A DNA stretch of 32,701 nt from a virus, in the IMG/VR virus record IMGVR_UViG_3300030109_004766, positions 1 to 32,701 of that record, one strand, 5' to 3'. The notes beneath the pieces are model-generated. The model did no database searches, was not told the DNA's origin, and saw nothing but the letters and a program-made list of their open reading frames with translations. The stretch's first letter is position 1. Every line of letters starts with the position of its first letter. A program made the translations under genes and the position numbers. Positions 1-31,134 of the stretch are shown one piece after another.

Positions 1-383
1 ATAGACTGTACATCAAGATCAATAACGTCGTCTTTATTGCTATCCCGGTAAGTTTTAACCGTACCGTTCCTCTGGCAGAGCGCGTCATATTTTCCCTGAT
101 GCTTATCAATCTTCCAAACAGATCGATATTGTCCAGGTACAAGAATAGCAGTCCCTTCGACGCGAGTGGGGTTCTCAAGCCAGTATTTTCCAGGCTCAGT
201 AGTACATTCCCAAGTGCGAGTGATCCAGCCCTGCTCATCACGGAACACGACACACATGCGGTCGTCAAAGCTGTTGGCTTGGTGATCCTTGCTACGGATG
301 CCGATGATGTTCAGGTTGTACTCGCCTCTCTCAAAGACCGTGTACCCTAACGAAGCTACATAATCTAAGAGAACAGGGCGCAT
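1..383 (-). CDS. Conserved phage protein, possible lysis/cell-wall enzyme (C-terminus cut off by window edge)
   Basis: An open frame runs from an ATG at 383 to the left edge, giving 127 complete codons without a stop. The start overlaps the stop of the upstream gene as ATGA, so it is translationally coupled to the lysis-like cluster. The protein begins MRPVLLDYVASLGYTVF and contains YNLNIIGIRS near residue 23, a GTAILVPGQYRS segment near residue 80 and YRDSNKDDVIDLD near the visible end. From memory, this pattern belongs to a family widespread in phages and prophages whose missing C-terminal part carries an INIH...SAGCQ-type motif and is suspected to act on the cell wall; I could not check this. 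The position at the end of a membrane-protein cluster suits an endolysin role. An acidic YRDSNKDDVIDLD stretch could bind calcium. Function is therefore inferred; existence of the gene is well supported. Confidence 0.72.
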   Translation of the reverse strand, partial: MRPVLLDYVASLGYTVFERGEYNLNIIGIRSKDHQANSFDDRMCVVFRDEQGWITRTWECTTEPGKYWLENPTRVEGTAILVPGQYRSVWKIDKHQGKYDALCQRNGTVKTYRDSNKDDVIDLDVQS

Positions 384-670: not shown

Positions 671-1107
671 TTTCCTGCCCCTGACGAGTAGTAATATGTA
701 GCCCCTAACCCGGCACTGACAACCACGACGACCGCCAGTGTCTCTATTCTACCAAACCAACGCTGTGTAGAGGGTTTTTCCATCCAAGGCACCGGCTTAT
801 TTGCCTCGTCTAACTTCGCTTTATACCAATCTAAGTCCCTCTCAAGAGACGCTGTGTCGATTTCGTATCTTTGTGCAACATGCTTCGCCCATTCTTCCGT
901 CGCCAAAAGATCCGCGTAATCAGAAAGAGGGACAGCAACTGCAGAACAGGCGGCGAAGCCGGGATCAACAACAAGGGAAGTGGGCAACTGCTGCCCCTCG
1001 TTGATACCATAAACCCTTTCGCATTGACCAGCTACCGGCTTTGGTGGTTCGGGTCTTTCCGGCGCATCTGCGGCAAAAGCCAACTGTGATAGCAAAAGCA
1101 GTATCAT
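667..1107 (-). CDS. Secreted/membrane protein with signal-like N-terminus and C-terminal membrane segment
   Basis: The 146-aa product starts with a short hydrophobic stretch ending in Ala-X-Ala-like residues (MILLLLSQLAFAADA), which reads as a signal peptide. A Pro-rich segment follows (about residues 15-25), then a region with two Cys (about residues 29 and 54) and a helical, charged middle (about residues 60-105). Near the C-terminus lies a second hydrophobic stretch (about residues 120-141, ETLAVVVVVSAGLGATYYY). This predicts a periplasmic domain held by a C-terminal membrane segment. It is coupled by ATGA overlaps on both sides. It may be part of a lysis or envelope-disruption complex, but I recognise no family and assign no function. 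Confidence 0.7.
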   Translation of the reverse strand: MILLLLSQLAFAADAPERPEPPKPVAGQCERVYGINEGQQLPTSLVVDPGFAACSAVAVPLSDYADLLATEEWAKHVAQRYEIDTASLERDLDWYKAKLDEANKPVPWMEKPSTQRWFGRIETLAVVVVVSAGLGATYYYSSGAGK

Positions 1108-1346
1108 CGACGCCTCGCATTCCCTCTGGATGCTAGATCATCTGCAGGTGACTTACCCTCTAAATCTCCCTTGATAGCTTCAAGATTCTTTTGAAACTCT
1201 TCATTTGAGATTTCTCTCGCCTTGTCCGCCACTTTATTTTTTGGTGGTCGCTGTTCTTTTTCTTTCTTCTTGTCGCGCTTAATACCAAAAATCGTCGCGA
1301 TTAATGCGACGATTGCAGCTAACAATATACTCGTTGTCTCAACCAT
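1104..1346 (-). CDS. Small single-pass membrane protein with highly charged cytoplasm-like tail
   Basis: The 80-aa product has one hydrophobic segment at residues 4-21 (TTSILLAAIVALIATIFG), then a dense Lys/Glu/Arg run (about residues 23-45) and a polar helical tail ending in RRR. The start has a TAGG-like site about 8 bases upstream, and the stop overlaps the next start as ATGA. Small anchored, charged proteins of this type are frequent next to holin and endolysin genes and are candidates for spanin-like or holin-accessory proteins. No family is recognised. The first gene of the ATGA-linked chain, it follows the upstream beta-rich protein gene after 8 bases. Confidence 0.68.
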   Translation of the reverse strand: MVETTSILLAAIVALIATIFGIKRDKKKEKEQRPPKNKVADKAREISNEEFQKNLEAIKGDLEGKSPADDLASRGNARRR

Positions 1347-1354
1347 GAAATAAC

Positions 1355-1726
1355 CTAAGTCGCTATAATTTTAACGATTACACTTTCGGAGGGTGAAGAG
1401 GTATTTTCTGGTGTGTTTGAAGTCGAACACCATAAAGTAAGCCCAGTTGAATAATCATGACCCTCACTTAAAACATATGACGCCTTTGCCCCTGGACCAG
1501 CAACGAACAACCACCAGGGCACAAGGGTCCCTGCCGAACCTGCTGATTGCGCGTCTTTAATTCTCAGATAAGCCGACGATGATGCATTTGCAGTATTGTC
1601 GATATCAACGAGATAAAGCTTACCGGAAGTATTGCCTGTGACATGAGCCTCAACAGACGAGTCTGCATCAAAGTCAATGATGAGGCTACCAACTTTAGTC
1701 GTTTCTGTTGTTTTTGTAAAAGCCAT
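1355..1726 (-). CDS. Beta-rich structural protein, type A copy 2 (paralogue of 2296-2685)
   Basis: The 123-aa product has no Lys-rich or membrane segments and is rich in Ser, Thr, Ala and Val, as expected of a small beta-sandwich or fibre-associated protein. It aligns by eye with the 129-aa protein encoded at 2296-2685: both have an LY/VW-x-V-D/E-I-x-N-T strand near residue 40, a following Y-hydrophobic-K/R segment, a G-T-x-x-P/C stretch, a GA/GASI-x-Y motif, a G-H/Y-x-Y/F-x-T-G-L turn, and end in V-x-L/V-K-I. A GAGG site lies close upstream of the ATG. It is probably a virion or fibre accessory, given its location directly after the fibre genes; the function is unknown. Confidence 0.75.
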   Translation of the reverse strand: MAFTKTTETTKVGSLIIDFDADSSVEAHVTGNTSGKLYLVDIDNTANASSSAYLRIKDAQSAGSAGTLVPWWLFVAGPGAKASYVLSEGHDYSTGLTLWCSTSNTPENTSSPSESVIVKIIAT

Positions 1727-1732
1727 ATCGCC

Positions 1733-2092
1733 TCAACTACAAATCAAGGTAACGCTAACTGTACCCGCAAAATCTGTTGTGTCATCTTCAGCACTGTTAG
1801 CGCTCACCCGAAAGTTAAGCATGTCAAATGCGAATCCTTTTGGTATTTGAAGTGACCTAATCTCAGTTGCCACGCCCTTAATTACTATCTCCGAGTTTGA
1901 CTGATCTTTTCCGTCGAGAATATGTAATGACACATTAGCATTACAGTTAGCCGAATTAATATAAGCTGCGTAAAGTGTGCCCGCGCTTTCTGTGACATTC
2001 ACAAATACAGTTGCGTCTTCAATTGAAGTACAATTAACTACTTTGTAATCAATAGAATCATGAAAACCGGTAATTGTAAGTGACGCAGCCAT
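1733..2092 (-). CDS. Beta-rich structural protein, type B copy 2 (paralogue of 2695-3075)
   Basis: The 119-aa product is all-polar/beta in character with no membrane segment. It aligns by eye with the 126-aa product of 2695-3075: T-x-F/I-V-x-V-T-E/Q-S-A/S-G-T/S-LY near residue 35, a following S/N-x-x-x-x strand, a central ILDG/ILYL segment, an IPKG/IPGG turn with F-x-x-L near residue 88, and a terminal strand V-x-L-x-x-x-S. No clear Shine-Dalgarno is seen (AAAAAG), and the gene starts 3 bases after the holin-like gene stops, so translational coupling is likely. It forms a pair with the type A gene immediately downstream. Role unknown; fibre accessory or adhesin is a guess from location. Confidence 0.73.
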   Translation of the reverse strand: MAASLTITGFHDSIDYKVVNCTSIEDATVFVNVTESAGTLYAAYINSANCNANVSLHILDGKDQSNSEIVIKGVATEIRSLQIPKGFAFDMLNFRVSANSAEDDTTDFAGTVSVTLICS

Positions 2093-2095
2093 CTA

Positions 2096-2299
2096 TTACT
2101 TTTTCCCGATACCAATTGCAGCCATTGCCTTTTCAGCACTGTCACCAGCAATGTAAGCCAAAGCCAAGTAAAGCCACTTCTCAGAGTCCAGCATACCAGA
2201 AATGAGTAGGCCGGTACCAAGTACCAAAACTGCGAGCCGACGCCAAGAAACGCGCTTCTGCGAACAAAAAAGTTGGTTGATAAAATTTTTCATAATCAT
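2096..2299 (-). CDS. Holin-like small membrane protein
   Basis: The 67-aa product has a basic N-terminus (CSQKRVSWRR) followed by two hydrophobic segments, about residues 22-36 (LAVLVLGTGLLISGM) and 41-50 (EKWLYLALAYIAG), separated by a short acidic turn, and ends in a basic GIGKK. Length, two membrane passes and charged ends fit a small holin. The first ATG (2299) overlaps the stop of the upstream gene as ATGA; a second in-frame ATG two codons later is better spaced from a GGGGGA site and could give a second start, reminiscent of dual-start holins, but this is only suggestive. It lies between two pairs of beta-rich genes, separated from the other lysis-like genes by about 750 bases. Confidence 0.68.
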   Translation of the reverse strand: MIMKNFINQLFCSQKRVSWRRLAVLVLGTGLLISGMLDSEKWLYLALAYIAGDSAEKAMAAIGIGKK

Positions 2300-2685
2300 G
2301 TTCCCCCGAGAATTTTTAATGAGACGGATTTAGATGGATCGACTTCTGCCGTAGAACCATCATTGGCTCTAAGTGAGGAACCAACAACACTTAATCCGGT
2401 AGCAAAAGTATATCCGTGTGGAAACAGATAACGAATTGAGGCGCCCGATGGTGCATAAAGCTGACAAAATGACGGGCCTGTCCCTACAGCATATGCATTT
2501 GTAGATGTTTGGGCCTTTACGTATGTAGCGACACCATTTTGTGTGTTTGTAATTTCAACCATCCACACTTTTGTCGCCAAGCTTGTGCCCGTAAAAATAT
2601 TTGTTTCACTTGTCGCATTTGTAGTCGTGTCGAGAATTAGCGTCTCGGCCAGTCTATCTGCAATTTTTGATACTGTTACTGCCAT
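2296..2685 (-). CDS. Beta-rich structural protein, type A copy 1
   Basis: The 129-aa product is Ser/Thr/Ala/Val-rich with no predicted signal or membrane segment. It shares with the 1355-1726 product the strand VWMVEITNT (residues about 40-48), the SIRYLFPHGYTFATGL stretch (about residues 85-100) and a C-terminal V-S-L-K-I strand. An AGGAG site lies 6 bases before the ATG. The stop overlaps the start of the holin-like gene. It belongs to the accessory block after the fibre genes and is probably displayed on the virion or assists fibre assembly. No family is recognised; function is unassigned. Confidence 0.75.
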   Translation of the reverse strand: MAVTVSKIADRLAETLILDTTTNATSETNIFTGTSLATKVWMVEITNTQNGVATYVKAQTSTNAYAVGTGPSFCQLYAPSGASIRYLFPHGYTFATGLSVVGSSLRANDGSTAEVDPSKSVSLKILGGT

Positions 2686-2694
2686 GATAAACTC

Positions 2695-3075
2695 CTAAGA
2701 TGTGACCATTGTAAGTTTAACGGTTGATGAGTTACCTGATGTTGTTCTCGCACTGATGCTATCTTTCGGACCATCTACAGTCCAAACACTCAATTTTGTG
2801 AATGGAATTCCGCCTGGGATAGACACGCACAAATCTGTGGCCTGCTTCAAATACAGAATCATATCGGCGGACGTAGTACCAACAGTTATTTCTGATTCAG
2901 TAAAACAAAACTTTACATAGTAATCATTTGAGATTCCTGTAACGGCATCCAACTTTATGTAGTACAAACTACCACTTGATTGAGTCACATCAACAATCGG
3001 TGTGCTTAGTGAATCTTCCGAGACTAATTTGTATTGAAGTACAGATGAGTCAAAATTTGCGGTTTTAAGTGCCAT
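2695..3075 (-). CDS. Beta-rich structural protein, type B copy 1
   Basis: The 126-aa product is beta-rich with a VDVTQSSGSLYYIKLDA segment (about residues 28-44) that matches its paralogue at 1733-2092, and a SIPGGIPFTKLSVW segment (about residues 85-98). The conserved G-x-LY-x-x-x-I/L element is also present in the type A proteins, so types A and B are probably distant paralogues. A GAGGAT site lies 6 bases before the ATG. It follows the propeller gene after 10 bases, in the same polycistron. Location suggests a fibre-linked accessory protein; no function can be assigned from sequence alone. Confidence 0.75.
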   Translation of the reverse strand: MALKTANFDSSVLQYKLVSEDSLSTPIVDVTQSSGSLYYIKLDAVTGISNDYYVKFCFTESEITVGTTSADMILYLKQATDLCVSIPGGIPFTKLSVWTVDGPKDSISARTTSGNSSTVKLTMVTS

Positions 3076-3085
3076 TTTCTATCCT

Positions 3086-4240
3086 CTAAACTGGTAAGTA
3101 TACATTTGCGCGAAGTGCTAGGTTTTCTCTTTCGCCATTGAAACTGAAGTTATCCACAATCTGAGTCCAATTGGCACCGTTATCTGTGCTTTCAGCAATG
3201 TCGCCGCCAAACGAACCAATAAGCCAAGTTCCATTTCCATCAGTCGCAATAGTTTCAATATCACCCTCAACTATTTCGCCTTCACCAACAGTCTTTCTAC
3301 CTGGCGATCTTATAGAAATTGAAGTGCCGTTGACATCGAACGACATTGTATATTCCGAGTGTGCCGCAATAACTACACCGTCACCACACGCTATAACGGT
3401 TCTTTGCGCCCCAGAATCTGCAGTTGTGATGCTGTCGCCACCAGAGGTCAATTCTTGTGTGCCCCACGTAGCATTTGAGCCGCCACCCATTTCTGTAGCA
3501 AATGCAGACGCGCCAACAGTATTTAGCTGTCCTGGCGTTCCGGCATCAAGAACAACCCAAGTGTTGTTTGTAAAACCAATATCGCAGACGTTTGCGCCTG
3601 GATAAGAAGTCATTTCAGCCCAGGTGCTTCCATTGTCTGTGCTGGCAAAGATATTTGAGCCCTGGCCGAACATCCAGCTTCCTGCGCCATCGCTTGCTAA
3701 ACCAAAGACAGTAACAGCGTTTTGAATACCAGACACTCCAGACAAGTCAACTTCAGACCAAGATGAACCATCTGTGCTGCGGTATAACTCTCTATTCGAG
3801 GCATCCATGTGGCCCATGGCAATCCAAACATTGTTACCCCATTCGATAGTCCTACATTTTTTGGACACGTTTACTTTGGTCCAAGTGCTCGAATCGGTAA
3901 TGTCATTGTTTCCGTCGTGAGCAATTTCCATACTGCCAGAGTTGTTAACCGTAGCCCATAAAGGATTTCCGCTGCCGTCCTTTCCATACGCGATGTCGTA
4001 AACATCGGGAGTTGAGGATTGAGCCGTTGTACCTGTCCATGATGTACGATCACTGTGAGCGCAGTAAGAAATATACCAATTGGACCCGTTCCCATCGTGA
4101 CCCATTACCCAACGGGTTGCAACTTGACCGGATGAAGGCGTATCAACACCATTGATGTTCTGAATACTGCTTTTCGCAATATCATTCACCTTTTCAATGT
4201 CAGCAGCAGCAACATCGTTGACTTTTTCAAAGTCACCCAT
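3086..4240 (-). CDS. Asp-box (BNR-like) beta-propeller fibre/receptor-binding protein
   Basis: The 384-aa product opens with an 11-residue repeat (FEKVNDVAAADI, EKVNDIAKSSI, QNINGVDTP), a linker type I remember from aquatic phage fibres. The rest contains repeated blades with S-T-D-x-G-x-x-W Asp-box motifs (STDGSSWSEV, STDNGSTWAEM, STDNGANWTQI) and matching strands such as GNNVWIAMG, GAGSWMFGQG, NNTWVVLDAG and GNGTWLIGSFGG. This is the signature of a sialidase/BNR-type propeller, without visible catalytic Arg/Tyr set, so binding rather than cleavage is more likely. The start at 4240 is preferred because it overlaps the fibre stop as ATGA and has GAGGT 6 bases upstream; an in-frame TTG one codon earlier is less likely. 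Probably part of the host-recognition apparatus together with the 855-aa fibre. Confidence 0.82.
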   Translation of the reverse strand: MGDFEKVNDVAAADIEKVNDIAKSSIQNINGVDTPSSGQVATRWVMGHDGNGSNWYISYCAHSDRTSWTGTTAQSSTPDVYDIAYGKDGSGNPLWATVNNSGSMEIAHDGNNDITDSSTWTKVNVSKKCRTIEWGNNVWIAMGHMDASNRELYRSTDGSSWSEVDLSGVSGIQNAVTVFGLASDGAGSWMFGQGSNIFASTDNGSTWAEMTSYPGANVCDIGFTNNTWVVLDAGTPGQLNTVGASAFATEMGGGSNATWGTQELTSGGDSITTADSGAQRTVIACGDGVVIAAHSEYTMSFDVNGTSISIRSPGRKTVGEGEIVEGDIETIATDGNGTWLIGSFGGDIAESTDNGANWTQIVDNFSFNGERENLALRANVYLPV

Positions 4241-6807
4241 CAAGCAACCTCAATGTAGTCTGGACTTGGGTTGAAATAGATTTTATCTGCTGTGATCGCC
4301 CAACCAATTACTTGAACCAGATCACCGTCTGTGGATGGTTTTGTTTGAGTTGGTGGGCCTTCCGCTTCGGGCGCGTAAAGACGCCCTGCAACAGTAAAGG
4401 ATGGGAATGTTCCCGCATCGTGAATGACACCCTGCATCAAAAACTTACCCACAGCATCGGCTGAAATATCTTCTGCAGCCATAGCAACAGCCGGAATAGC
4501 TTCTGAGTTGCCTGCGGTCATGTTGACCTTGTGCATCTTAGAGTCACCTGCCTTAAAGTATACTACGTCACCGCGAACAAGCGACTCACCTGCGGTAAAA
4601 GCCGCCGTGATACCCGAGCACTTTTCATCTGCAATGGCAGTATCAATGGTCAACATTCCAAAAATGTCAATGTTCTGGGCAGGATCGAGAATCATAGTAG
4701 GCGTTGTGCCGTGCGTTTGACCAATACCGATCTCGAAAGTATCCGACGAGTCAACAATACCCATTCGATAATCCTGGGCATTTCCGTCAAAAGCAAGCAT
4801 GGTGTCTTCTGCAACAGCGTCACCGATCACAAGCTTCGGTGTTGCTCCATTTGAGCCAATAATGACATTCCCGTCAGGCTCTAGTTTCAGGTGAGCAGCG
4901 GCCCCATCGTCATCAACAGTTTGAATTGTCGTTAAACCTGCAGCCCCAACAGCAATTGTTGCATAGTCGCCCGCATCGGCAGAACTAACCATCTTAATGT
5001 CAGGTCCACCATCAGCAATCTGCATATAGATGCCCTGGTTGTAGTCTCCACCACTGGCGGTCAAATCCAAAGCGCGGACAGTGCTCGTCTCTGGACTTGT
5101 TGATCCTGTAGCAACAACTTCCATACCTCTTACGGTTACCGTTCCTGACCCTGACGGATGAGTACACGTCGGGGTAACCTTAATCCCCGTCATTGTGTTT
5201 GACCCGGCAATCGCGGTTGTATTGTCCATGTCAATGTTGATGCCATACATTGTATTGGCGCCCTCACTCGCACCAGTTTTATCAATGTCAATGGTTAGGC
5301 CGGTAAGCGTTGAATCTGCGGTAACACTGTAATCTTGATCAATTACAATGCCGTCGGTTGACGTGGTTGTGAATGTCGACTTGCGCGTGTCATCAATCGT
5401 CAATGCGGTCGCTATTGAACTACCGTTATTCGTAGCAACACTAAACTTACCTTTGGTATCATTGGCTGTTCCACTGTGACTGCCTTCGATCATCGCCAAG
5501 CCAGCACCGCTATGGTCACCAAAAAGAACGCGAGTCTCTGCCCCACCTTCACCATTTTCATCTGTGGTGTTTTGTAGTGTAATGTACGCATCTGCGCCCG
5601 CAACATGAAGCAAATTACTTGGAGCGGTTGTCCCAACACCAACGTTGCCACCACTAAATAGTGCCGCGTAGTTGGTGTCTGCGCCCGTCACATTGACATC
5701 AATACCCACATTTTTCTGAGTACCAGATGTTCCACCAGTAAGATCAATGTCTAAACCAGTGTTGTTGACTGTACCAACCATCGTGGGGCTATTGGAGTTA
5801 ATGTCCAAGTCGAAGCCAACATTATTACCAGTTTGACCCGAAGCAATAATGCCTGTTGCATCGTAGTCGATATGTGCGCCAACGGTTGTGTGGTTTGTTG
5901 TCGCTGTGACATCTGAATCCACAAGAAGCGTTGTACCGTCAAAGGTAAGCTTAGACTCTGAGGTAACTGTCCCATCACCATCGTCAGTTAGAATCTGGTT
6001 ATTCGCTCCGCTAACACCTACAGGATGAAGGTCAGAAACAACCAACGTTCCATTGCTAGCAGTAAGACCTGTTGTTGCAGAAGATCCCGCGATACCACTA
6101 ACTAAATCAGTAATGGTTTCCTTCTTGGATGCATTACTGTCATCAGCATCAATGATTGCAATACTATCACTTGCTACTGCTACTGTAGCGGTAGAAAGTC
6201 CATTGAGGTCAACCGCAAGAGTAACACCCCCAGTATTACCACCACCGGAAAGACCATCACCTGCAGTAACACCAGTAATATCACCAGTAGTAGGTGCTTC
6301 AGCCACCCACTTCGCACCATCGTATGTAAGAACGTCCGCGCTACTCGGAGAATCTTGGCCAATCTTTGTAACGTGGCCAGAAGCATCAATAGTAATCGCA
6401 GCAGTCCCACCGGCTTCTTTGATTGACCCACCATCATCAAGAGTAATGTCACCAGAGATAGCCACATTCGCCAAACGCAAATTTGCATCTGTTAGGGTCA
6501 GGTCGCCCGAACTAGCGCCAGTTGCACTGGTGGTGGCGATTACCCATTCATCAGCACTCTCATCCCAGATAAGCGCTGAGTTTGTTGAAGTACCACGCTC
6601 TACAATAATACCCGCATCACCAGATGGTGTGCCTGAGGTACCGTGAGCCAACTCCATAATTTTATCTTCGACGAGAACAGAAGTACTTTCGACCGTCGTA
6701 GTTGTACCCTCAACAGTCAAATCACCCTTGACGACGACACTTCCATCAGCCGTAGTCGTAACGGATGAATCAAAAACATTTCCAACTACGTTACTTGAAG
6801 TACTCAT
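4240..6807 (-). CDS. Long repetitive tail fibre protein
   Basis: The 855-aa product is Gly/Thr/Ser/Asp/Ala-rich and almost without Cys, as in trimeric beta-structured fibres. The N-terminal part carries GDLTVEGTTTTV and LTLTDANLRLANV segments, typical of fibre shafts that I remember from marine phages. A GNVGVGTTAPSNLLHV element lies near residues 387-402; this motif is common in phage and bacterial adhesins, often before a self-cleaving chaperone, but no such chaperone domain is evident at the end. Several alternating G-I/L-D-I-D/N strands occur around residues 330-380 and 500-545. The last ~128 residues (about 728-855) form a distinct domain with RGDVVYFKAGD and GRLYAPEAEG strands, resembling capsid decoration-type domains. 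GGAG precedes the ATG, which overlaps the upstream stop (TAATG). Confidence 0.85.
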   Translation of the reverse strand: MSTSSNVVGNVFDSSVTTTADGSVVVKGDLTVEGTTTTVESTSVLVEDKIMELAHGTSGTPSGDAGIIVERGTSTNSALIWDESADEWVIATTSATGASSGDLTLTDANLRLANVAISGDITLDDGGSIKEAGGTAAITIDASGHVTKIGQDSPSSADVLTYDGAKWVAEAPTTGDITGVTAGDGLSGGGNTGGVTLAVDLNGLSTATVAVASDSIAIIDADDSNASKKETITDLVSGIAGSSATTGLTASNGTLVVSDLHPVGVSGANNQILTDDGDGTVTSESKLTFDGTTLLVDSDVTATTNHTTVGAHIDYDATGIIASGQTGNNVGFDLDINSNSPTMVGTVNNTGLDIDLTGGTSGTQKNVGIDVNVTGADTNYAALFSGGNVGVGTTAPSNLLHVAGADAYITLQNTTDENGEGGAETRVLFGDHSGAGLAMIEGSHSGTANDTKGKFSVATNNGSSIATALTIDDTRKSTFTTTSTDGIVIDQDYSVTADSTLTGLTIDIDKTGASEGANTMYGINIDMDNTTAIAGSNTMTGIKVTPTCTHPSGSGTVTVRGMEVVATGSTSPETSTVRALDLTASGGDYNQGIYMQIADGGPDIKMVSSADAGDYATIAVGAAGLTTIQTVDDDGAAAHLKLEPDGNVIIGSNGATPKLVIGDAVAEDTMLAFDGNAQDYRMGIVDSSDTFEIGIGQTHGTTPTMILDPAQNIDIFGMLTIDTAIADEKCSGITAAFTAGESLVRGDVVYFKAGDSKMHKVNMTAGNSEAIPAVAMAAEDISADAVGKFLMQGVIHDAGTFPSFTVAGRLYAPEAEGPPTQTKPSTDGDLVQVIGWAITADKIYFNPSPDYIEVA

Positions 6808-7238
6808 TACGCTCTCCAGTTGAGCCGAATGTTTTCAGCCACACATGCTGCGTTAGCTTTTGCCACAACATAAATAGTGCCGCTCGCAGCATTAGAAGCT
6901 GTTGTGTCGTAATGATAATCTTTACCAACCGTAAAAGAAACGCCACCAGTGCTTGCTGCGTTACTGACTTTTGTCACAGCTTGAGTGGCACCACCCAATT
7001 GATCCGACGTCAGTGGAACATGACCGTTAGAATCACGAGAAAGATACATCGTAATTGTATCCCCTGTAGCAATCGCGCTAAGCTCAAATTCGATAGACTC
7101 AAGAAAACAATCGTCAGGCACGACACCAGACTTATTATTCGCAGCTAAATTTGTGATCGCAGTGACTGAATAAGTTGTACCGATAGCAACATCTACAGCC
7201 GAGCATGAGTAACCGTACTTCGTGAATTGTTGAATCAT
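6807..7238 (-). CDS. Hypothetical beta-rich virion protein
   Basis: The 143-aa product begins MIQQFTKYGYSCSAVDVA and is rich in Ala, Thr, Ser and Val with scattered Cys (about residues 12, 44, 131), without signal or membrane segments. A central LESIEFELSAIATGDTITMYLSRDSNG stretch (quoted in pieces: IEFELSAIATGD, ITMYLSRDSNG) reads as beta strands around a turn, and the C-terminus ends IRLNWRA. AGGAG lies 8 bases before the ATG. Its stop overlaps the start of the fibre gene (TAATG), so it is coupled to the fibre. It could be a small fibre-attachment or decoration protein. No family is recognised. Confidence 0.72.
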   Translation of the reverse strand: MIQQFTKYGYSCSAVDVAIGTTYSVTAITNLAANNKSGVVPDDCFLESIEFELSAIATGDTITMYLSRDSNGHVPLTSDQLGGATQAVTKVSNAASTGGVSFTVGKDYHYDTTASNAASGTIYVVAKANAACVAENIRLNWRA

Positions 7239-7317: not shown

Positions 7318-10300
7318 CTACTTTAACCTCTGCCCTGGCTTAGCTTTTTTCTGAACCAAACGACTACTGTCTTCTTCAGCTTGATATTTTGCGGCTGACG
7401 CGGTTCTTTCACGAGTAATGTCACGCATATCAAGACCCAACGCTGTACGTATCGCAACTTGAAGATTGCCCCGCATACCCGCAGCTTTTTCAGGCGACGT
7501 CTTCTCCATCTTCAACAAGATGTCATTTACCTCACCAAAAGGACTGTTATTAAATGCCAACTGCATGACACCGGGCATCAGGTAATAGACTTTATCTTGT
7601 TTAGTTTCTACCCCAGGCCGCTTAAGGGGCAAAGGATCTACATCTTTCCCCGCATCAATGTCTTTTTTACGCTCAATCAACAAAGAATATGGGTCATCTC
7701 TTTCGTCTAATTCAAGTACATCTAATCCTGAGTAATCAGCAAAAAAAGCAAAAGCAGGATGCACCTTTCTCGGTATTTGAGATCCACCAATACCTAAAGA
7801 CGCCATTGCATCAGACACACCAATTGTTCTTTCTGTGTTCAACAAAGCATTTAGTGGTGTGATCGGACTAATTGCATCCGATCCATCATCTTCATCCGTA
7901 AACCAGGCATCACCCAACTCTTCAACCTCACCTATTGCCAGCAGCATCGTAGAAGCCAAATACGTAAAGTGATTCATTGCAGCATTGTAGGTTGGGTCAG
8001 GTAAAAACAGCCCCATGTACGGCGCATCTGGACGATTTTGTCGATACAAATCCGTCCAAGTTTTCATCGTTTGTTTAAACTCACCAGGAATTTCGGGGTC
8101 AATTGACACGTCAACTGCACGCTCTGGTAGGTACGGAAGCCTCAGAGAAATTCTATCGTGTAAGTAATTAGGCATTGAGGAACGATCTGTTCTCGGTACA
8201 TAAAATGCTGCCAGAGAACGACGATCCACCAACAAAGGTTTACCCTCTTCGTCTTTCAAGCCACGAGCAATATCGACAAATTCTTCTGTAAGCTCTGTTG
8301 TTTGTCGCAATTGACCCAAAGATGCGCGAACAACTGAACCCGAAACAAACAAACGTAATTCTTCTCGAACGATTGGTGGGATACGACCATCAACTTCGTA
8401 CCGACCATAGATTTCTTTCTTCAAAGCAAAGTAGCTTTGCCTCAAATCATCTGGCAGTCCATCCACATAGATTCCGTTTTCATCAACAGATGCCGCGTAA
8501 ACAAGCTCACTGAGAGCATCGCTACCCTTATCATAGGCTCGACGCATAACACCCAGCCTGTACGCGCCTTCGGGGCTGAATAAGACGTCAAACATCTGGC
8601 GGTTTGCGTTCTTTTGGAAAGCCCAGAAAGGGAAGAATAGGTTGACCAGGAAGTTTCGATCGCCCTTAGACATGCTGCCTGCGTAGTCATAGAGCGCTTC
8701 AACTGCGATACGTGCCGCAGTTTTGGGGTCCATGCCGCCTTCAATCAAAGTGATTGCAAGACCTGCGCGCTCTCGCTCAGCCCAAGCTTCTGCAATATCT
8801 TCTGATGCGCCTTTGAGATCACCAAGAATATCTTTGCCCGCTTGAGACAAATTCCCTTTTTTCTGCTGCTCCATCAAAAACAAGTTTCCGACATTCTCAA
8901 TCTTCGTACCCAATTGACTGGTGTCGAATGAGGCGAAGACACCTGCTTCCAGAAATATCTGACGCAGATCGCTCATCACATAGGGCTTACCACCCAAGAG
9001 AATAATCTCATCACCGCCACGAATTACGTCATTAACATTGATGTGCCACTTAGAACCACGGCTAAATTTCTTCGCCCACTGTGCCGCCTTATCACCACCG
9101 GACTGCAGCACGCGTCGAAATGCCTCAACTTCTTCACCCTTACCGGCTCGACGTGCAGCGAATACAGCAGCTTGACCTATCGGATTCGACAACACATTCT
9201 GAGTAAACATTCGAGTGGTTGAGACAAATGCTGTTCCGTATCCCGCACGAAGGGCTGTTTGGTTGAAGTGATCGAATGTATTCATCCAAAAGTATCGAGA
9301 CTTCAAGACAAAGTGACCACGAACCATACGTGTTTTGAGGTACCGATAGATCAACGCCATATTCAACTTGGTCGTTGTGTTCGTACCTTTTGAGATCACG
9401 TCCTCACCAGCCGCCATCACAGTATGCATCGCATCAAATAGGTCGCCGTTAAGTGACTTTATGATGGTTGGATCATTCGCCTGAGACATAGCCATCGCAA
9501 GACGGTTGCGTGCCGCGTTTGGAAGATACATTGTGACGCCGTCCAAACTGAACACGTCAACCATACGGGGGTTGTACCCCATAAGATCTACGAAACGTTT
9601 GACCTGGACCAATTGCTCATCAGATACTTTCTCACCGACCAGGTACATATTGACGGCGCTTGCAAGTTCTTCATCGGCAGCAATACCAAGCTTAACCCAG
9701 TTAAGACGGGCCTTATGAGCCACACCATGACCTGCTACCAGAATAGCTACACGGTTCGCAACTTTGTTATCTTCAGGGAATAGCGTCGAAATCTCATCAT
9801 ACAAACGAATAAATGTGTTTTGAGGTACGTCAACAATACCGGCATCAGACATCATCGTGGAGTACAGTTTGCTTTTGTTATCCGCAGGATCGACACGCTC
9901 GACTAAGTTTGCGTAATACATAAACGCTTCGAGCAACCCACCGGCTTCAGTAGCACCTTTTGGTTGTGTCAAAAACTGAGGGTAAAACTCAGATGACTTG
10001 TACCCCGCTGCCTCAAACGCTTCTTTGATAAACCGGTTTGATTTATCACCCTTCACCACAGCATTAAACGCTTCGATGATCTGCTTTTGGGTGATATCCT
10101 CGCCCCCGACTTTCATCTGGGTGATTGTTTTCAAAGCTTCTGAGGCTGAGTTATTTTGCCTTACAAGAGCCGCGTACGTTTGAAGAATCTCTATTTGAAT
10201 CTTCCCTGCTTCCTCGGTCGCCATTGCTTTGAAGTACTTCTCCATACTCTTCACAACAGAAGTCACTGAGTCATGACCAGCACTCATCGCTGACCGACCA

Positions 10301-13300
10301 CCCTTGGCAAACTGAACAGTCTTGGTACCCGTCAGGTACCGCATCAAATTATTGATGTCACCTTCGACAACAAGCGTAATCGCGTCACCAATAGCTTGCT
10401 GAACCAGCCGCTCACCCGCTTTGACCGATTCTCGAATCGCAGGAGGTAGATGGCGCATGTCAGCGTACGCATCACCACCGAGGAATATGTTGCGAAATAC
10501 CCGACCCAATGGTCTATTAAGCATCGCCTGGTCAGTTAACTCTGCGGCTGAACGCTCTTCGATTGCTTTCTCAGCACCACCAATAGGCAAAGGCACAGTT
10601 TTCTTCGGCTGTATCTCAAACAACCGAGCATCCTCAAGCTGCCTCTGAGCCTTCGCCAAATCAGTCAAAGTAAACTGATCTTTTGGTTTACCTAAAGCAC
10701 CGCCGAGTTTAATCGCGACGGGAAATTTCAGTACTGCGGCATCGGGCTTATTTGGATCGTATCTTTTTAGCGCATCAGCCCATTGCTTCTCAAGATCTGC
10801 TTTTGATACCGGATTGCCCAAGCGATACAACTCTCGGTAGATCTCGTCCAAGACATCAAACTTCGTACCCTCTTTCTTCGCAGTAGACAGCATCGCATCT
10901 TTCGTAAGCTTAAAGATATTCGGAAGCGCAACCCGTTCAGAGCGCGTCCGCAAAAGCTTGTCCAATGATCGTGTGAGTCCGGGGTCTGTTCCTGGCAGTG
11001 GTCCGCCAGCACTACGACTTGTGATTGAGGTATATGTATCTTTAAGCCACTCATTTGCCTTACTCAAAGCCCCTTGAATTTCTGGTTGATCAGCCTGACC
11101 TGACTTCACGTAATGTAGGAACGCCCTCGCAAATTCTTGTTCAGCGGCTTCTACGACAGAAGCATCGTCTGCTGTGAGCACTGAACCACGATGACCAACC
11201 TTAATGCCCTTGGTTCCCAGCCAGGTAACCAAAGCCTTCATATCCGAGTCATCAAAGTTTCGACGAGTCACCCGACCGATTGCCAGCATGAAATCATCTG
11301 CCGTTGCGGTCTCCGTCAAAGCACGGATAACGGCACGGCCATCCTCCATGAAGTCTACAACCACAGGGTTAGCTACAAAGTCATCACCACGGGCAGCAAA
11401 GCGACTAACAGAACCCTCGTTGACGAGAGCATAAAGGTAATCAAGCGAAAATCTCTTTCCGTGTTCAATTGCAATTTTATCCAAGTCTAATTTAGCCAAG
11501 TTACGCGAGCTAATAAAATAGACATCGGTCAATTCGCCTTGTGCATCAGGTAAAGGTTTACGCTGAAACTTGACCCCTAAATTCTGTAACTTGTTGTAGA
11601 CACGAACAGCATCTTCCGTAGGCGTTAAATCACTAACAAAGCCCACACCCTCATTCTGCGCGTGCTTGAGTGCCCTAAGATATAAATCTGTTCCAAGCCC
11701 CTTACGCCGCAGAGATGCTGGAACCTCAACAGAGTCTACCTGAAAGACTCTTGAACCAAAAACTTTGTTCTCGCGGAAAAGTATTTCACCCAAAGGTTCA
11801 TCATATTTTTTTAACTTAGGTCGTTCATCAGACTTTTTAATTTGTCGCCTGTAAATTGTAACTAAAACCGGTGATGTAACTTTTGTGCCGCCTTCGGATA
11901 CAGTCACGATAGGTTCAGCATCAGAAACAACGCGGGGATCAAACTTAGATGCCGCCGTTAACAGCCGATCGTTTGCCACCAATACTTGAGCCAAAGCACC
12001 GGTCTCGTCCTCTGCCGTAATACCAAACAACTTAGCGATTAAACGCGTAAACTTGTTCCACAAAGTAGTTTTTGGTCCAATCTCTAAAGTTTGGAGCATC
12101 CGTTGAAAACTCGAACTACTTAAACTCCAAGCAAGAAACTCTTTCGTCGAACCGAAATAGTCCCAGCCCATTAACATGGCGTCGATTTTTACTGCGACAT
12201 CTTCAGTCAAATCTTGTGTGTTTCGGTAATTACGTAAAGCAGTAAGCGTCTCGTCGGATAGATCCTCTAAGTTTTTAATCGTAGCGTTATTAGGAGATGC
12301 ATCAATAAAAATTGATGTTGCAGCATGAATAAACTCATGCAGGATTGTCTCTTCATCCAAGCCCGTTCGCAAGGCACCAGCAATACCCCGAATTCGTACC
12401 TCGTTTAAAATACTCGAATACTGACCATAGCTGTTATTCATTCCAGTCGTATCAATTTCACGACCGTCAACAATCTTAAACGAAGGAGCGTTTCTTCTGA
12501 TTGTCGGTAAGATGCGTCGTGCAATTGCTCTGGTAGCAGGCAACGCTGCATGGTTCGCCAAAAACTCAACAACCTTTGCGCCTTCACCTGGTCCCTCAAA
12601 TTGACGTAGATGGTTGTAAAGATCTTCAGCGGACAAACTGCCCACAGGTTCGCTACGTTGAAACCAACCAACAAACAAACCACGAGGTGTAGACGGTTCA
12701 ATATCTGGCAATGGTTTCTGTTTTGGTGCCGTAGCTACAGGACCCTCAAACGCCCCACGAGCAGCCTTACCCGCTACCTTAGGCTTAAAGACAGACTCAT
12801 CAAGCCCCGTCAAAGCTTCTCGAAGACCTGTAGGTAGCTTTTCCTCCATTGGACCCGCAGGCGGATACTCGTCAAGTGCCTTCGCTGTAGGCGGTGTCTC
12901 TACATCTTTCGGTGTAGGCGCCTCAGGTGTCGGAGCCTTAGGCGGTGCATCAGGAGCAAGACCACGGGGCCGAGGTCTCGGTGATGGCGCACCAACAATT
13001 GCCTCAAAAGTCTCGTCGTAGAAAGCCTGTACAGTACGCTCGTTCTGCTTCGCCCACTTCTTTGCTTGGTTGTCTACATTCTTCGTAATTCTAAGCGCTT
13101 CATCGGCTGAAATATTCGGTGCAGCTTCTTGAAGCTGATCTAAAAAAGCCAATCCATCAGGAGACAAACCTGAGCGACCAACAGCTTTGTGCTTCTCTGT
13201 GATTGAAACAATCAATGGATCAACGGACAGACCTGCTTTTTCCGCTATTTTCTCACGCGTAAACGCCATGGCCGCTGCACGAGACTCAAACTGACCGCGA

Positions 13301-15642
13301 ATAGCTTTGACGCCTTTTGCCGTAGCACTTGCCGCAATCTCAGGTGTAACCTTGGTTTTCAATGCTGCACGAGTCTTCTTCATCGAAGTCACCGTGGTAG
13401 ACATTTCTTTGTTTAGCTTAGAAAGAAAGATATTCGTATCGGTCAACTTCTCAGGATCAAACGGAAGTTTCTGCGCCAACTCCGTTACCCGAAGTTTCCA
13501 AGCATTCGGATCATCACGAAGTAGTTTAATCGACTCAGCAGACTCCAAGTAACGAACAAGGTCGATTGATAGTTGACGCTGATCTGTAGTCAAATCTGGA
13601 TTAGCTGTACCGACATTGATCTCACGCATGAAGTCTCGTACTTTCGATAGAAAGCTAGACGCTTCTTGTCGATTAGCACTCAAAAGCTGTTCGTTAATGT
13701 TGCCCTCTTTCAACACACGAACAGAGTCTTTTAGATGCTCGATCGACTCACTCATACTGAGTAATTCACCGAAACCGACGGTCTGCTCATCCATGTCACC
13801 ACGAAGAAGTTTACGTCGTAAACCCTGATGGATATTCTGCTCAATGAAACCAAATGAACCAGGTATGATTGAGGCCAATCGGTTGCCTTCACCACCAGCC
13901 ATTTCAGGTGTTTCTTTACTCAGCTTACGGGCAATTTCCGTATCTAACTCATCAACAACGGTTGCTGCGTTTCTATCTAATCCGCGTGCCTCGGATATCG
14001 ATGCATCAGACTTCTTTGCAAACTCCTGTGCTTCATCAAGCAAACGCAGAGCCTCATCGTAGTTACCTGCAAGAATAGCATCAGCCACACCATCACTCAG
14101 AATCTCTTCGGCTTTGGCCAAAGACTCTGCACCATCACCCAAGCTGCCCGTTAAACCTGGGGCAAGCTTTCTAAGTCGAGCCACGTCTGCGGCAGATGTG
14201 CCCAACTTCTTTGTTATGCGTGCGGCAGCAGCGGCACCAATAAATGCATCGGGGAAAACAATAGCACCACCCAAGCCAAGCATACCCAAAGCAACTGCAG
14301 TAAGGCCGTCAGACTCAGCCGCCTCAGTGGATAGCGCAGCTTTTATGAGATCCCTACGGTCTTTAATACCTTCAAGTGATCCTTCTGAGATAGCGTCGAG
14401 AAACGATTCACCCTCAGGCCCTTTGGCGAGTCTCTCTACCGCACCTGTGAAGGCAGCTTGAGGTGCATCCATCAACTCAAAGAGGTGCCATGTAGGTGAG
14501 TCAAGACGGTAAACCGGTGCTTTGTTTTTCGCGTCTAAGCCAATAACTTCTACACGAACCTCACTCGCATTGTTCCACGCTTTCGAAAACCAACTCTTGT
14601 CGTCTTCGTTTTCTGTGTTTGGAATCTTCTTGAGTGGGTCAATCAAGTCGTATGAAATGAAAGCCGGAAGATAAAACTTGTTCAGTGTACGGAGAAGTGT
14701 TGCATCATACAAAGCGTTCTTCATTGCTTTGTCTTTCAAATCTTCGTACGAAACACCGTCCTCTCGGATCTGACCTCGACCGATACCCTCTTTCTTGGAC
14801 ATCTTGTTGAGGTCATACGTAGCGATGTTCCCGATAATGTCTCGAAACTTACTGTCCGCCAGGACGTCGCGAATCATTTTACCGGAAGATGGAGTACCCA
14901 AACTCTGTAGCTGTTGTTGCCAAAGCTTGGCTCGTTCAGGGTCTTCCGCCACTTTGTCATTGATGATCAACTCACCCATCTTATCAAGTTGATCCCACCC
15001 AGGTTGACCGACACGGATAATCGCATCCTCGGCCTCACCTTCCGTGTTGCCGTCGAAGATTATCGGTGGTTGTTCTCGAGGATCAAAGCGTGAGAGTATT
15101 CGCCGTTGTGCCGCCTCACGCTCTTTCTTTGGTAGCTTTTTCTTACCTGTTTGAAGGCGCTTAAGTCCTGACAAAGCAATGTCTGTTCCCCGTTGCTTTA
15201 CCTCACGCTTCTCTTTGGTCTCGCCAGCCTGCTCTCTCTGAAGTTTGAAAGACTTAACTACATCACTGACCGGCTCACCCTTTTCCGCCACCCGCGTAAA
15301 CAGGTCGTCGAGTGGAATATTCTGATACGTTGCTGCTTCTTTGTATTCTGTCGGCGTCAGCCCCGTAAAATCTGTGACTTCGCTCAGAGCATCTTCGTAG
15401 TTAAACGTTGGCGCTTCTTCTGCTTTACGCTTCTCAACAGCTTTAGGGTCGTATGAACGCTCTGTTTCTGCGTACTCAGCAATGATCAGACCCAGCCGCT
15501 CGATCTTCAAGTCTTTCGTCAGCTTACCTAATTTTTCCTTATCAAACTGTGTAACCTCAGGCTGTTTAACTTCAGGTTGCTCAGCATCGACGGCAAGGGT
15601 TTCTTCCTCAACAATTTTGGTACCTTGCTCTTCCTTAGCCAC
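7318..15642 (-). CDS. Giant internal virion/polyvalent protein with zincin and GNAT-like domains
   Basis: The 2774-aa product starts at a GTG with GGGG 6 bases upstream. N-terminal ~430 residues are charged and helical, followed by a hydrophobic stretch (about 443-475, LGMLGLGGAIVF and later residues) and long coiled-coil-like helices. A Pro-rich linker lies at about 885-935. Next comes ILHEFIHAAT with H1102, E1103 and H1106, and KEFLAW with E1168 as likely third ligand: a zincin metallopeptidase. At about 1235-1375 a GNAT-type acetyltransferase segment contains VPASLRRKGLGTDLY (R1312-T1318 is the acetyl-CoA loop). Another helical module around 1490-1570 (EQEFARAFLHY, NEWLKDTYTSI) resembles modules of large polyvalent proteins. 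Near 2320-2345 FFPFWAFQKNANRQ matches a motif I remember from large ejected phage proteins. Its place after other ejection-type genes suggests packaging and injection with the DNA. The domains are seen; the injected-effector role is inferred. Confidence 0.85.
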   Translation of the reverse strand: MAKEEQGTKIVEEETLAVDAEQPEVKQPEVTQFDKEKLGKLTKDLKIERLGLIIAEYAETERSYDPKAVEKRKAEEAPTFNYEDALSEVTDFTGLTPTEYKEAATYQNIPLDDLFTRVAEKGEPVSDVVKSFKLQREQAGETKEKREVKQRGTDIALSGLKRLQTGKKKLPKKEREAAQRRILSRFDPREQPPIIFDGNTEGEAEDAIIRVGQPGWDQLDKMGELIINDKVAEDPERAKLWQQQLQSLGTPSSGKMIRDVLADSKFRDIIGNIATYDLNKMSKKEGIGRGQIREDGVSYEDLKDKAMKNALYDATLLRTLNKFYLPAFISYDLIDPLKKIPNTENEDDKSWFSKAWNNASEVRVEVIGLDAKNKAPVYRLDSPTWHLFELMDAPQAAFTGAVERLAKGPEGESFLDAISEGSLEGIKDRRDLIKAALSTEAAESDGLTAVALGMLGLGGAIVFPDAFIGAAAAARITKKLGTSAADVARLRKLAPGLTGSLGDGAESLAKAEEILSDGVADAILAGNYDEALRLLDEAQEFAKKSDASISEARGLDRNAATVVDELDTEIARKLSKETPEMAGGEGNRLASIIPGSFGFIEQNIHQGLRRKLLRGDMDEQTVGFGELLSMSESIEHLKDSVRVLKEGNINEQLLSANRQEASSFLSKVRDFMREINVGTANPDLTTDQRQLSIDLVRYLESAESIKLLRDDPNAWKLRVTELAQKLPFDPEKLTDTNIFLSKLNKEMSTTVTSMKKTRAALKTKVTPEIAASATAKGVKAIRGQFESRAAAMAFTREKIAEKAGLSVDPLIVSITEKHKAVGRSGLSPDGLAFLDQLQEAAPNISADEALRITKNVDNQAKKWAKQNERTVQAFYDETFEAIVGAPSPRPRPRGLAPDAPPKAPTPEAPTPKDVETPPTAKALDEYPPAGPMEEKLPTGLREALTGLDESVFKPKVAGKAARGAFEGPVATAPKQKPLPDIEPSTPRGLFVGWFQRSEPVGSLSAEDLYNHLRQFEGPGEGAKVVEFLANHAALPATRAIARRILPTIRRNAPSFKIVDGREIDTTGMNNSYGQYSSILNEVRIRGIAGALRTGLDEETILHEFIHAATSIFIDASPNNATIKNLEDLSDETLTALRNYRNTQDLTEDVAVKIDAMLMGWDYFGSTKEFLAWSLSSSSFQRMLQTLEIGPKTTLWNKFTRLIAKLFGITAEDETGALAQVLVANDRLLTAASKFDPRVVSDAEPIVTVSEGGTKVTSPVLVTIYRRQIKKSDERPKLKKYDEPLGEILFRENKVFGSRVFQVDSVEVPASLRRKGLGTDLYLRALKHAQNEGVGFVSDLTPTEDAVRVYNKLQNLGVKFQRKPLPDAQGELTDVYFISSRNLAKLDLDKIAIEHGKRFSLDYLYALVNEGSVSRFAARGDDFVANPVVVDFMEDGRAVIRALTETATADDFMLAIGRVTRRNFDDSDMKALVTWLGTKGIKVGHRGSVLTADDASVVEAAEQEFARAFLHYVKSGQADQPEIQGALSKANEWLKDTYTSITSRSAGGPLPGTDPGLTRSLDKLLRTRSERVALPNIFKLTKDAMLSTAKKEGTKFDVLDEIYRELYRLGNPVSKADLEKQWADALKRYDPNKPDAAVLKFPVAIKLGGALGKPKDQFTLTDLAKAQRQLEDARLFEIQPKKTVPLPIGGAEKAIEERSAAELTDQAMLNRPLGRVFRNIFLGGDAYADMRHLPPAIRESVKAGERLVQQAIGDAITLVVEGDINNLMRYLTGTKTVQFAKGGRSAMSAGHDSVTSVVKSMEKYFKAMATEEAGKIQIEILQTYAALVRQNNSASEALKTITQMKVGGEDITQKQIIEAFNAVVKGDKSNRFIKEAFEAAGYKSSEFYPQFLTQPKGATEAGGLLEAFMYYANLVERVDPADNKSKLYSTMMSDAGIVDVPQNTFIRLYDEISTLFPEDNKVANRVAILVAGHGVAHKARLNWVKLGIAADEELASAVNMYLVGEKVSDEQLVQVKRFVDLMGYNPRMVDVFSLDGVTMYLPNAARNRLAMAMSQANDPTIIKSLNGDLFDAMHTVMAAGEDVISKGTNTTTKLNMALIYRYLKTRMVRGHFVLKSRYFWMNTFDHFNQTALRAGYGTAFVSTTRMFTQNVLSNPIGQAAVFAARRAGKGEEVEAFRRVLQSGGDKAAQWAKKFSRGSKWHINVNDVIRGGDEIILLGGKPYVMSDLRQIFLEAGVFASFDTSQLGTKIENVGNLFLMEQQKKGNLSQAGKDILGDLKGASEDIAEAWAERERAGLAITLIEGGMDPKTAARIAVEALYDYAGSMSKGDRNFLVNLFFPFWAFQKNANRQMFDVLFSPEGAYRLGVMRRAYDKGSDALSELVYAASVDENGIYVDGLPDDLRQSYFALKKEIYGRYEVDGRIPPIVREELRLFVSGSVVRASLGQLRQTTELTEEFVDIARGLKDEEGKPLLVDRRSLAAFYVPRTDRSSMPNYLHDRISLRLPYLPERAVDVSIDPEIPGEFKQTMKTWTDLYRQNRPDAPYMGLFLPDPTYNAAMNHFTYLASTMLLAIGEVEELGDAWFTDEDDGSDAISPITPLNALLNTERTIGVSDAMASLGIGGSQIPRKVHPAFAFFADYSGLDVLELDERDDPYSLLIERKKDIDAGKDVDPLPLKRPGVETKQDKVYYLMPGVMQLAFNNSPFGEVNDILLKMEKTSPEKAAGMRGNLQVAIRTALGLDMRDITRERTASAAKYQAEEDSSRLVQKKAKPGQRLK

Positions 15643-30075: not shown

Positions 30076-30083
30076 ACCTCCTT
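30076..30083 (-). promoter_or_regulatory. Strong ribosome binding site that sets the decoration protein start
   Basis: The minus strand reads AAGGAGGT then ACATT and ATG. This is the closest match to the Shine-Dalgarno consensus in the window and its first bases overlap the TAA stop of the capsid gene. It decides the start at 30070 and implies a high translation rate. Confidence 0.85.
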
Positions 30084-31134
30084 AAATCGCGCCGCCGGAA
30101 ACACAACCCTGAGCCGGAAGCTTAGTGCAGATCATGTTGCCTTGCATTGCAAAGATAGCGGTTACCACGTCCTGATCTCCAACCCGTTCCTTGAATTCCG
30201 AGATGTTCGGGGCTTCAAGCATTGGGAATTCAATGTAGTCCGTGTTGAGCATGTAAGTGACACCGTCAGCAGCGACACCCGAGAAAGCAGAAGAATCTGT
30301 GCGATCCAAGTCGATAGACGAGGTAACAGCAGCAAGACCAAGGGAAAGACCCAGGGTGTTGCTCTTGTCAATCTTATCATCAACGAGAGTCACGCGGACG
30401 TTCTGGCTACGCTCATCTTCGAAGTTAGTGAAGGTATCATCGTCCATGATCACAAGATCAGGACCCTTACCAACACCACCTGCGTAGTGAGCACACTTAC
30501 GATACGTCTTCCGAAGTTGAGACATACCCTCACCAGACCAAGAACCAATGTCATTGTACTGGTTGAAGTGGAAGTAGCTTGTGCTTGTTGTCACGTTTTG
30601 TACAGCAACAGAACGAGAAGCACTGAAGCCGAGAAGACCATTGGTCACGCCGGTTCCAATACCTGATGTGTGCTGTCCGTTAAGAGACAAAAGCCCAAGA
30701 AGCTCTGACGTGTTGAAAGCAAGTCCGCGACTCACACCAGTGAGAAGAAACTTGTTCATGTCAGCCTTAGCAGCTTCCATTGCGGTCTGAGGATATTCTT
30801 CGATCAATCGAATAACAGCCAACTTGCCGCTGTTTTGGTTCAACTCTCGCTTAGGAATGTTGATGGCCATAACCATACGGTGTGGCTCAACCTCAAACTT
30901 ACGAATTTGTTGACGCCGGGTCATGTTCAGTAGCTCATCGCCCACATAAACACCAACACCACGAGCAGGGGCACCACCGGAGAAGGAACGTTCAATCTTC
31001 GTTCCGCCTTCCATGGGCATCCGAGCCTTGGAGTTAAGTGCTTCGAACAACTCATTGCTACGAACAAACGAATTTACAAGAGGTCCACGGAGGTCCGCGA
31101 ACGTAGTATTCAGTAGTTCTGTACTGATAGTCAT
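30082..31134 (-). CDS. Major capsid protein (HK97-fold family likely)
   Basis: The 350-aa product begins MTISTELLNTTFADLRGPLV. It has an ARMPMEGGTKIERSF strand near residue 37, a helical spine-like region (about 95-135, RLIEEYPQTAMEAAKADMNKF), a VIMDDDTFTNFEDERSQNV segment (about 230-248) and a TAIFAMQGNMICTKLPAQG ending. These features and the length fit major capsid proteins of HK97-like phages, where the C-terminal strand often ends with a G-N/Q-L/M-V/I-C/...-P/..-G run. It has only a weak ribosome site (GTGAGA) and opens the minus-strand operon. No protease or scaffold is visible nearby; a scaffold may lie elsewhere. I regard the call as good but not checked by search. Confidence 0.85.
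   Translation of the reverse strand: MTISTELLNTTFADLRGPLVNSFVRSNELFEALNSKARMPMEGGTKIERSFSGGAPARGVGVYVGDELLNMTRRQQIRKFEVEPHRMVMAINIPKRELNQNSGKLAVIRLIEEYPQTAMEAAKADMNKFLLTGVSRGLAFNTSELLGLLSLNGQHTSGIGTGVTNGLLGFSASRSVAVQNVTTSTSYFHFNQYNDIGSWSGEGMSQLRKTYRKCAHYAGGVGKGPDLVIMDDDTFTNFEDERSQNVRVTLVDDKIDKSNTLGLSLGLAAVTSSIDLDRTDSSAFSGVAADGVTYMLNTDYIEFPMLEAPNISEFKERVGDQDVVTAIFAMQGNMICTKLPAQGCVSGGAI

Follow-up and report, generated by a model that had tools for sequence, protein, structure and literature searches.

Phages are known to evolve by exchanging host-contact genes as blocks. In tailed phages, receptor-binding and fiber cassettes are exchanged as sharp-edged blocks between closely related genomes and diverge quickly relative to their conserved flanks, and the swapped unit comprises a fiber tip and its chaperone. 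The locus described here shares the sharp-edged exchange and the fast divergence, but its unit is a pair of small paralogous proteins, termed B and A. The best or near-best neighbors of A and B in the PDB are the KHP40 cement protein (PDB 7dou) and the PRD1 vertex protein P5 (PDB 1yq5). Like A and B, these are small beta-sandwich proteins, located in their case on the virion surface, but the TM-scores lie below or about 0.5 and sequence similarity is absent. To our knowledge, neither is encoded as a pair of paralogous genes. The Ig-like decoration proteins T4 Hoc, T5 pb10 and N4 gp17 mediate attachment (PMC7602432) and may have a role in common with A and B, as accessory beta proteins that touch host surfaces. 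Their fold class is different, however, and membership of A and B in this group is not claimed. A true member of the A/B family is encoded by the 197-kb Virus Rctr197k (APU88968.1; KX853510.1 143253-143612; L063:6001-6360), yet as a single, partnerless gene on the strand opposite to its neighbors.

The window, meaning the whole stretch of DNA that was analyzed, is a 32.7-kb IMG/VR virus record from an uncultured bacterial virus. Five array genes had been recognized from the letters alone (the sequence-only reading), and all five are confirmed as minus-strand open reading frames with the following exact coordinates, in which stop codons are counted. Flanking genes are listed as context.

4240..6807, minus strand: context, 855-aa fiber-like protein (ORF; fiber call from sequence character only)
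3086..4243, minus strand: context, 385-aa propeller-like protein upstream of the array (propeller call by eye)
2695..3075, minus strand: B1, 126-aa small beta protein, first gene of the left B-A pair (ORF)
2296..2685, minus strand: A1, 129-aa small beta protein, second gene of the left pair (ORF)
2096..2299, minus strand: HOL, 67-aa membrane protein, probable holin, separating the two pairs
1733..2092, minus strand: B2, 119-aa small beta protein, first gene of the right pair (ORF)
1355..1726, minus strand: A2, 123-aa small beta protein, second gene of the right pair (ORF)
1104..1346, minus strand: context, 80-aa protein with a membrane segment at its N terminus, resembling a spanin or holin by weak match and hydropathy
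2..383, minus strand: context, endolysin truncated at the window end (YkuD-like motif by eye)

Spacers of 9, 3 and 6 nt separate B1 from A1, HOL from B2 and B2 from A2, and the A1 stop overlaps the HOL start by 4 nt (ATGA). The array is positioned at the junction between fiber genes and lysis genes, and the major head gene (30082-31134; phrog_9953) is located about 27 kb from the array at 1355-3075. The array is also present at 100% protein identity in a longer contig, IMGVR_UViG_3300030110_004955 (53 kb). Among the context genes, the 385-aa protein matches phrog_8700, a family of unknown function (E=5.5e-5), a Pfam search with the 855-aa protein gives no match and the similarity of the 80-aa protein to the Rz-like spanin phrog_1026 is not significant (E=0.02). 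A full-length relative of the truncated endolysin (L006:6341-6925) matches the endolysin family phrog_33083 (E=1.5e-16). Both the window copy and this relative carry a YkuD-like SxGC motif, and the endolysin is 43-54% identical to many bacterial proteins, mostly from Bacteroidota. Elsewhere in the window, positions 7318-15642 are taken up by one 2774-aa ORF that may encode an internal virion protein.

Database searches provide few functional hints for A and B. None of A1, A2, B1 and B2 matches Pfam, and the sole PHROG match among the four is a weak one between B2 and a tail spike (E=0.0037). Relatives of A and B give few matches to tail fiber and spike PHROGs, all marginal and scattered and none significant. 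Single-protein searches of annotated phages give a single marginal match, for A2, and no match for B1, A1 or B2. Hydropathy profiles reveal neither a membrane segment nor a signal-like start in A or B. Structural searches of the PDB return KHP40 cement, PRD1 P5, plant virus coats and C1q-like jelly rolls, all with TM-scores up to about 0.5; KHP40 is the best neighbor of B (probability 1.00, E=3.8e-3, weak TM of 0.49-0.50) and also appears among the matches for A. Such matches would indicate a fold class at most, many of the neighbors being virion-surface jelly rolls. In BFVD, the A2 model aligns with small unnamed phage proteins at a TM of about 0.8. The family is also absent from the open-access papers searched. 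As far as these searches reach, both the A/B protein family and its organization into paralogous pairs that are obligate and occupy fixed slots are new.

The sequence-only reading had proposed that A1 is related to A2 and B1 to B2, and profile alignments bear this out. BLASTP aligns A1 with A2 at 1e-10 and B1 with B2 at merely 4e-4 across 28 residues, while profile-profile alignments with four genomes per gene yield E=1.7e-19 over 119 columns and 3e-9 over 117 columns, respectively. At this depth, A and B profiles also align with each other in three of the four pairings (2e-7 to 5e-6), A1/B2 being the pairing without a match, and a profile of all A sequences aligns with one of all B sequences at 5.3e-34 over 121 columns (63 A, 63 B sequences). 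As controls, column-shuffled and reversed versions of the profiles and two small, unrelated beta families of the same phages score about 10-20, near chance, versus 38-190 for the true pairs. The AlphaFold2 models of A2 (pLDDT 87) and B1 (84.6) have identical strand order and thus show no sign of different folds. Because of the all-A/all-B alignment and the common predicted strand order, all four proteins are members of one family; B1, for instance, is joined to both B2 and A by profiles and falls in the B1 clade of the tree. The G-x-LY strand earlier noticed in both A and B is real, but it belongs to a full-length homology rather than being an isolated feature. The low raw identity of B1 and B2 would fit a chance resemblance among four unrelated beta-rich proteins of common composition. 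This explanation is refuted by the shuffled, reversed and unrelated-family controls and contradicted by the tree, the strict pairing and the identical strand order, which leaves it with practically no probability.

Several candidate relatives were rejected. A 120-aa family and a 143-aa protein (6807-7238) give profile scores at control level, fused A/B domains within fiber or propeller proteins are represented by merely partial, repeat-like matches of 10-15 bits, and a Gluconobacter phage GC1 protein matches in fold but not in a full-length profile alignment. The 120-aa family (phrog_30535; L071:3162-3524 and similar) is located upstream of the array in several relatives and is missing from the window.

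Related loci were collected with a HOL-alignment scan (48 loci) and with two scans using A2-type alignments (25 and 23 loci), which are independent of B and HOL; some contigs recur among the scans. Once duplicates of the same array are removed, 25 loci have the layout B-A-HOL-B-A, 19 have HOL-B-A, 18 have B-A and 4 have B-A-HOL. Each of the 87 distinct A genes directly follows a B gene, with a gap of -10 to +11 nt, and the single B gene lacking an A sits at a contig end. Distances between genomes are correlated within pairs (B1-A1 rho 0.62, B2-A2 rho 0.65), less so across pairs (rho 0.27-0.39) and least between A or B and HOL (rho 0.02-0.19), despite HOL adjoining both pairs; this within-pair co-divergence can partly come from linked exchange rather than contact. 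Identity across genomes is 33-41% for A and B, 80% for HOL and 86% for the endolysin, and this divergence of A and B, far faster than that of flanking genes, is a trait of receptor-binding cassettes. Median dN/dS is 0.2-0.4 for A and B, calculated from few comparisons (9-27) because synonymous sites saturate, 0.12 for HOL and 0.065 for the endolysin. Selection on all these genes is purifying overall and not clearly diversifying.

Profile searches of whole virus records were used to survey copy number. At least two pairs are present in 20 of 25 records, including all 11 that reach 60 kb, and one genome (L018) has three pairs in total. The five records with one pair are 49-59 kb long and possibly incomplete, and two pairs per genome is the pattern seen across these 25 records and is not established as a rule. 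Six genomes have one pair at the holin slot and the other at a distance of 11-43 kb, without exception as B followed by A. Five of them (L135-L139) carry this distant pair directly after a RusA-like resolvase gene, near 4.5-5.9 kb in the oriented sequence, and these deeply diverged pairs form their own clades in the tree.

Comparisons of closely related genomes reveal that the B-A pair is exchanged as a block and is gained and lost at a fixed site. L020 and L029 are 92-100% identical over B1, A1, HOL and the downstream sequence, but B2 and A2 are only 56% and 69% identical; identity drops no more than about 25 nt from the B2 start and recovers at the A2 stop. The right pair is swapped likewise between L070 and L085, whose flanks are 97% identical in HOL and 93% in the downstream gene. 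Left of HOL, filled and empty sites have a common upstream sequence that extends to the start codon. For example, 59 of 60 nt agree between L017, which is filled, and L027, which is empty, ribosome site included, and four genome combinations are 89-96% identical over 120 nt.

The history of the pairs was examined with an A/B tree rooted on the single-copy Rctr197k homolog. This protein matches A with 100 bits and B with 114 bits, the behavior expected of an outgroup that was never duplicated; a scan using it as the query returned no match. The earliest split separates A from B with support of 95 and 99. Within A and within B, the sequences group by position 1 or 2, which takes 5 label changes where 3 is the minimum and shuffled labels average 69, and with seven sequences added the group labels take 10 changes (minimum 5), in a tree of few columns whose branching details are not reliable and many of whose forks are unresolved. 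The earlier proposal that a B-A pair was duplicated and then diverged holds in that the ancestral unit is B-A, of which the array contains two diverged copies. A simple in-place tandem duplication is not supported, because the pair is a cassette that genomes gain, lose and exchange and the second pair of other genomes lies 11-43 kb away, and it was dropped in favor of cassette insertion. The small membrane gene had been read as either caught between the copies or part of the original unit. It does lie between them, with an insertion slot on each side; some genomes have the left pair alone and others the right pair alone, and HOL is therefore not part of the unit.

HOL itself has one strong hydrophobic segment and a net charge of +5, is 76-79% identical in relatives and matches no holin family in Pfam or PHROG. 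In other relatives, its slot holds a 69-71 aa protein (L071:4394-4603, L077:4403-4618 and L096:3984-4196) that matches the holin family phrog_9987 at 2e-5 to 1e-4 and has no detectable homology to HOL, an in-place holin replacement. Because HOL is interchangeable with this protein and its slot is followed by spanin-like and endolysin genes, HOL is likely a holin by position. A HOL scan of bacterial genomes returned no relative, and an endolysin scan returned 22 distant relatives, none accompanied by A, B or HOL.

From the evolutionary behavior of the pairs, namely their strict pairing, within-pair co-divergence, block exchange, gain and loss at a fixed site and presence as two pairs in the longest records, we infer that B and A contact the host. 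The array represents two B-A cassettes flanking a holin-like gene at the fiber/lysis junction. In the proposed mechanism, B and A, as diverged members of one jelly-roll-like family that are always co-encoded, would form one hetero-oligomer on the virion surface, either at a tail or fiber tip or as a head decoration, and this hetero-oligomer would touch the host cell. A need for matching partners could explain why they travel as a block. The holin-like gene would be an uninvolved marker of a stable point of insertion within the late operon. The probability that B and A form such a hetero-oligomeric, host-contacting jelly-roll protein of the virion surface is estimated at roughly 55%. The lack of membrane segments and signal-like starts and the virion-surface jelly rolls among the structural neighbors count in its favor; the weakness of the PDB matches, the scarce and marginal matches to tail fiber PHROGs and the purifying selection count against it. 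The heteromeric adhesin suggested by the sequence-only reading would be compatible with all findings. Two different pairs could further provide two surface specificities per particle. The broader model, in which two matched hetero-oligomers have their own targets and are shuffled between genomes as fixed-site cassettes, from gene start to gene stop, as two exchangeable specificities, is tentative and on balance doubtful.

Three other roles were weighed. B and A could be a capsid cement or decoration pair whose hetero-trimers, or similar assemblies, stabilize the head lattice, with host contact secondary or absent. Cement proteins normally follow their capsid lattice. A and B do not behave in this manner, being swapped between near-identical genomes, and their genes occupy the fiber-lysis end of the genome, far from the major head gene. 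The trimeric KHP40 cement protein remains the closest structural neighbor of B and is listed for A as well, and decoration proteins can also mediate attachment (PMC7602432). On this evidence, a cement function is considered unlikely. A non-virion accessory (moron-like) cassette, acting for example in phage exclusion or host modulation during infection, would fit the block-wise gain, loss and exchange, the lone Rctr197k homolog on the opposite strand and the B-A pairs of L140 (5000-5823) and L141 (5091-5859), which sit between replication genes (primase/helicase, PAPS reductase) and on the opposite strand. The latter pairs also argue against the virion-surface reading, since replication-gene neighborhoods are not the usual location of virion genes. 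However, no record of 60 kb or longer has fewer than two pairs, which speaks for a core need; A and B carry no secretion or membrane signal, and the majority of copies are within the late operon, making an accessory role a rather poor prospect. Finally, lysis-associated proteins acting with HOL would agree with the direct contact between the genes, through the ATGA overlap and the 3-nt spacing, and with the spanin-like and endolysin genes that come next. This role is highly improbable, because the pairs are kept beside either holin version and away from both, and they do not co-diverge with HOL.

If the host-contact reading is correct, the surface part that changes fastest in a whole group of uncultured phages would belong to a protein family that is neither described nor annotated. 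Its obligate pairs, mobile as cassettes, would then offer a simple, testable case in which partner matching limits recombination, and a B-A pair beside a holin slot would serve as a sequence handle for host-contact genes missed by databases.

In some relatives, an extra gene encoding an 89-186 aa proline- or charge-rich protein is located between HOL and B2 (L018:8211-8771, L034:8205-8594, L044:1694-1963 and L049:5231-5545). The right pairs of genomes with such a gene share one clade, and the extra gene differs between L102 and L103, which are otherwise near-identical.
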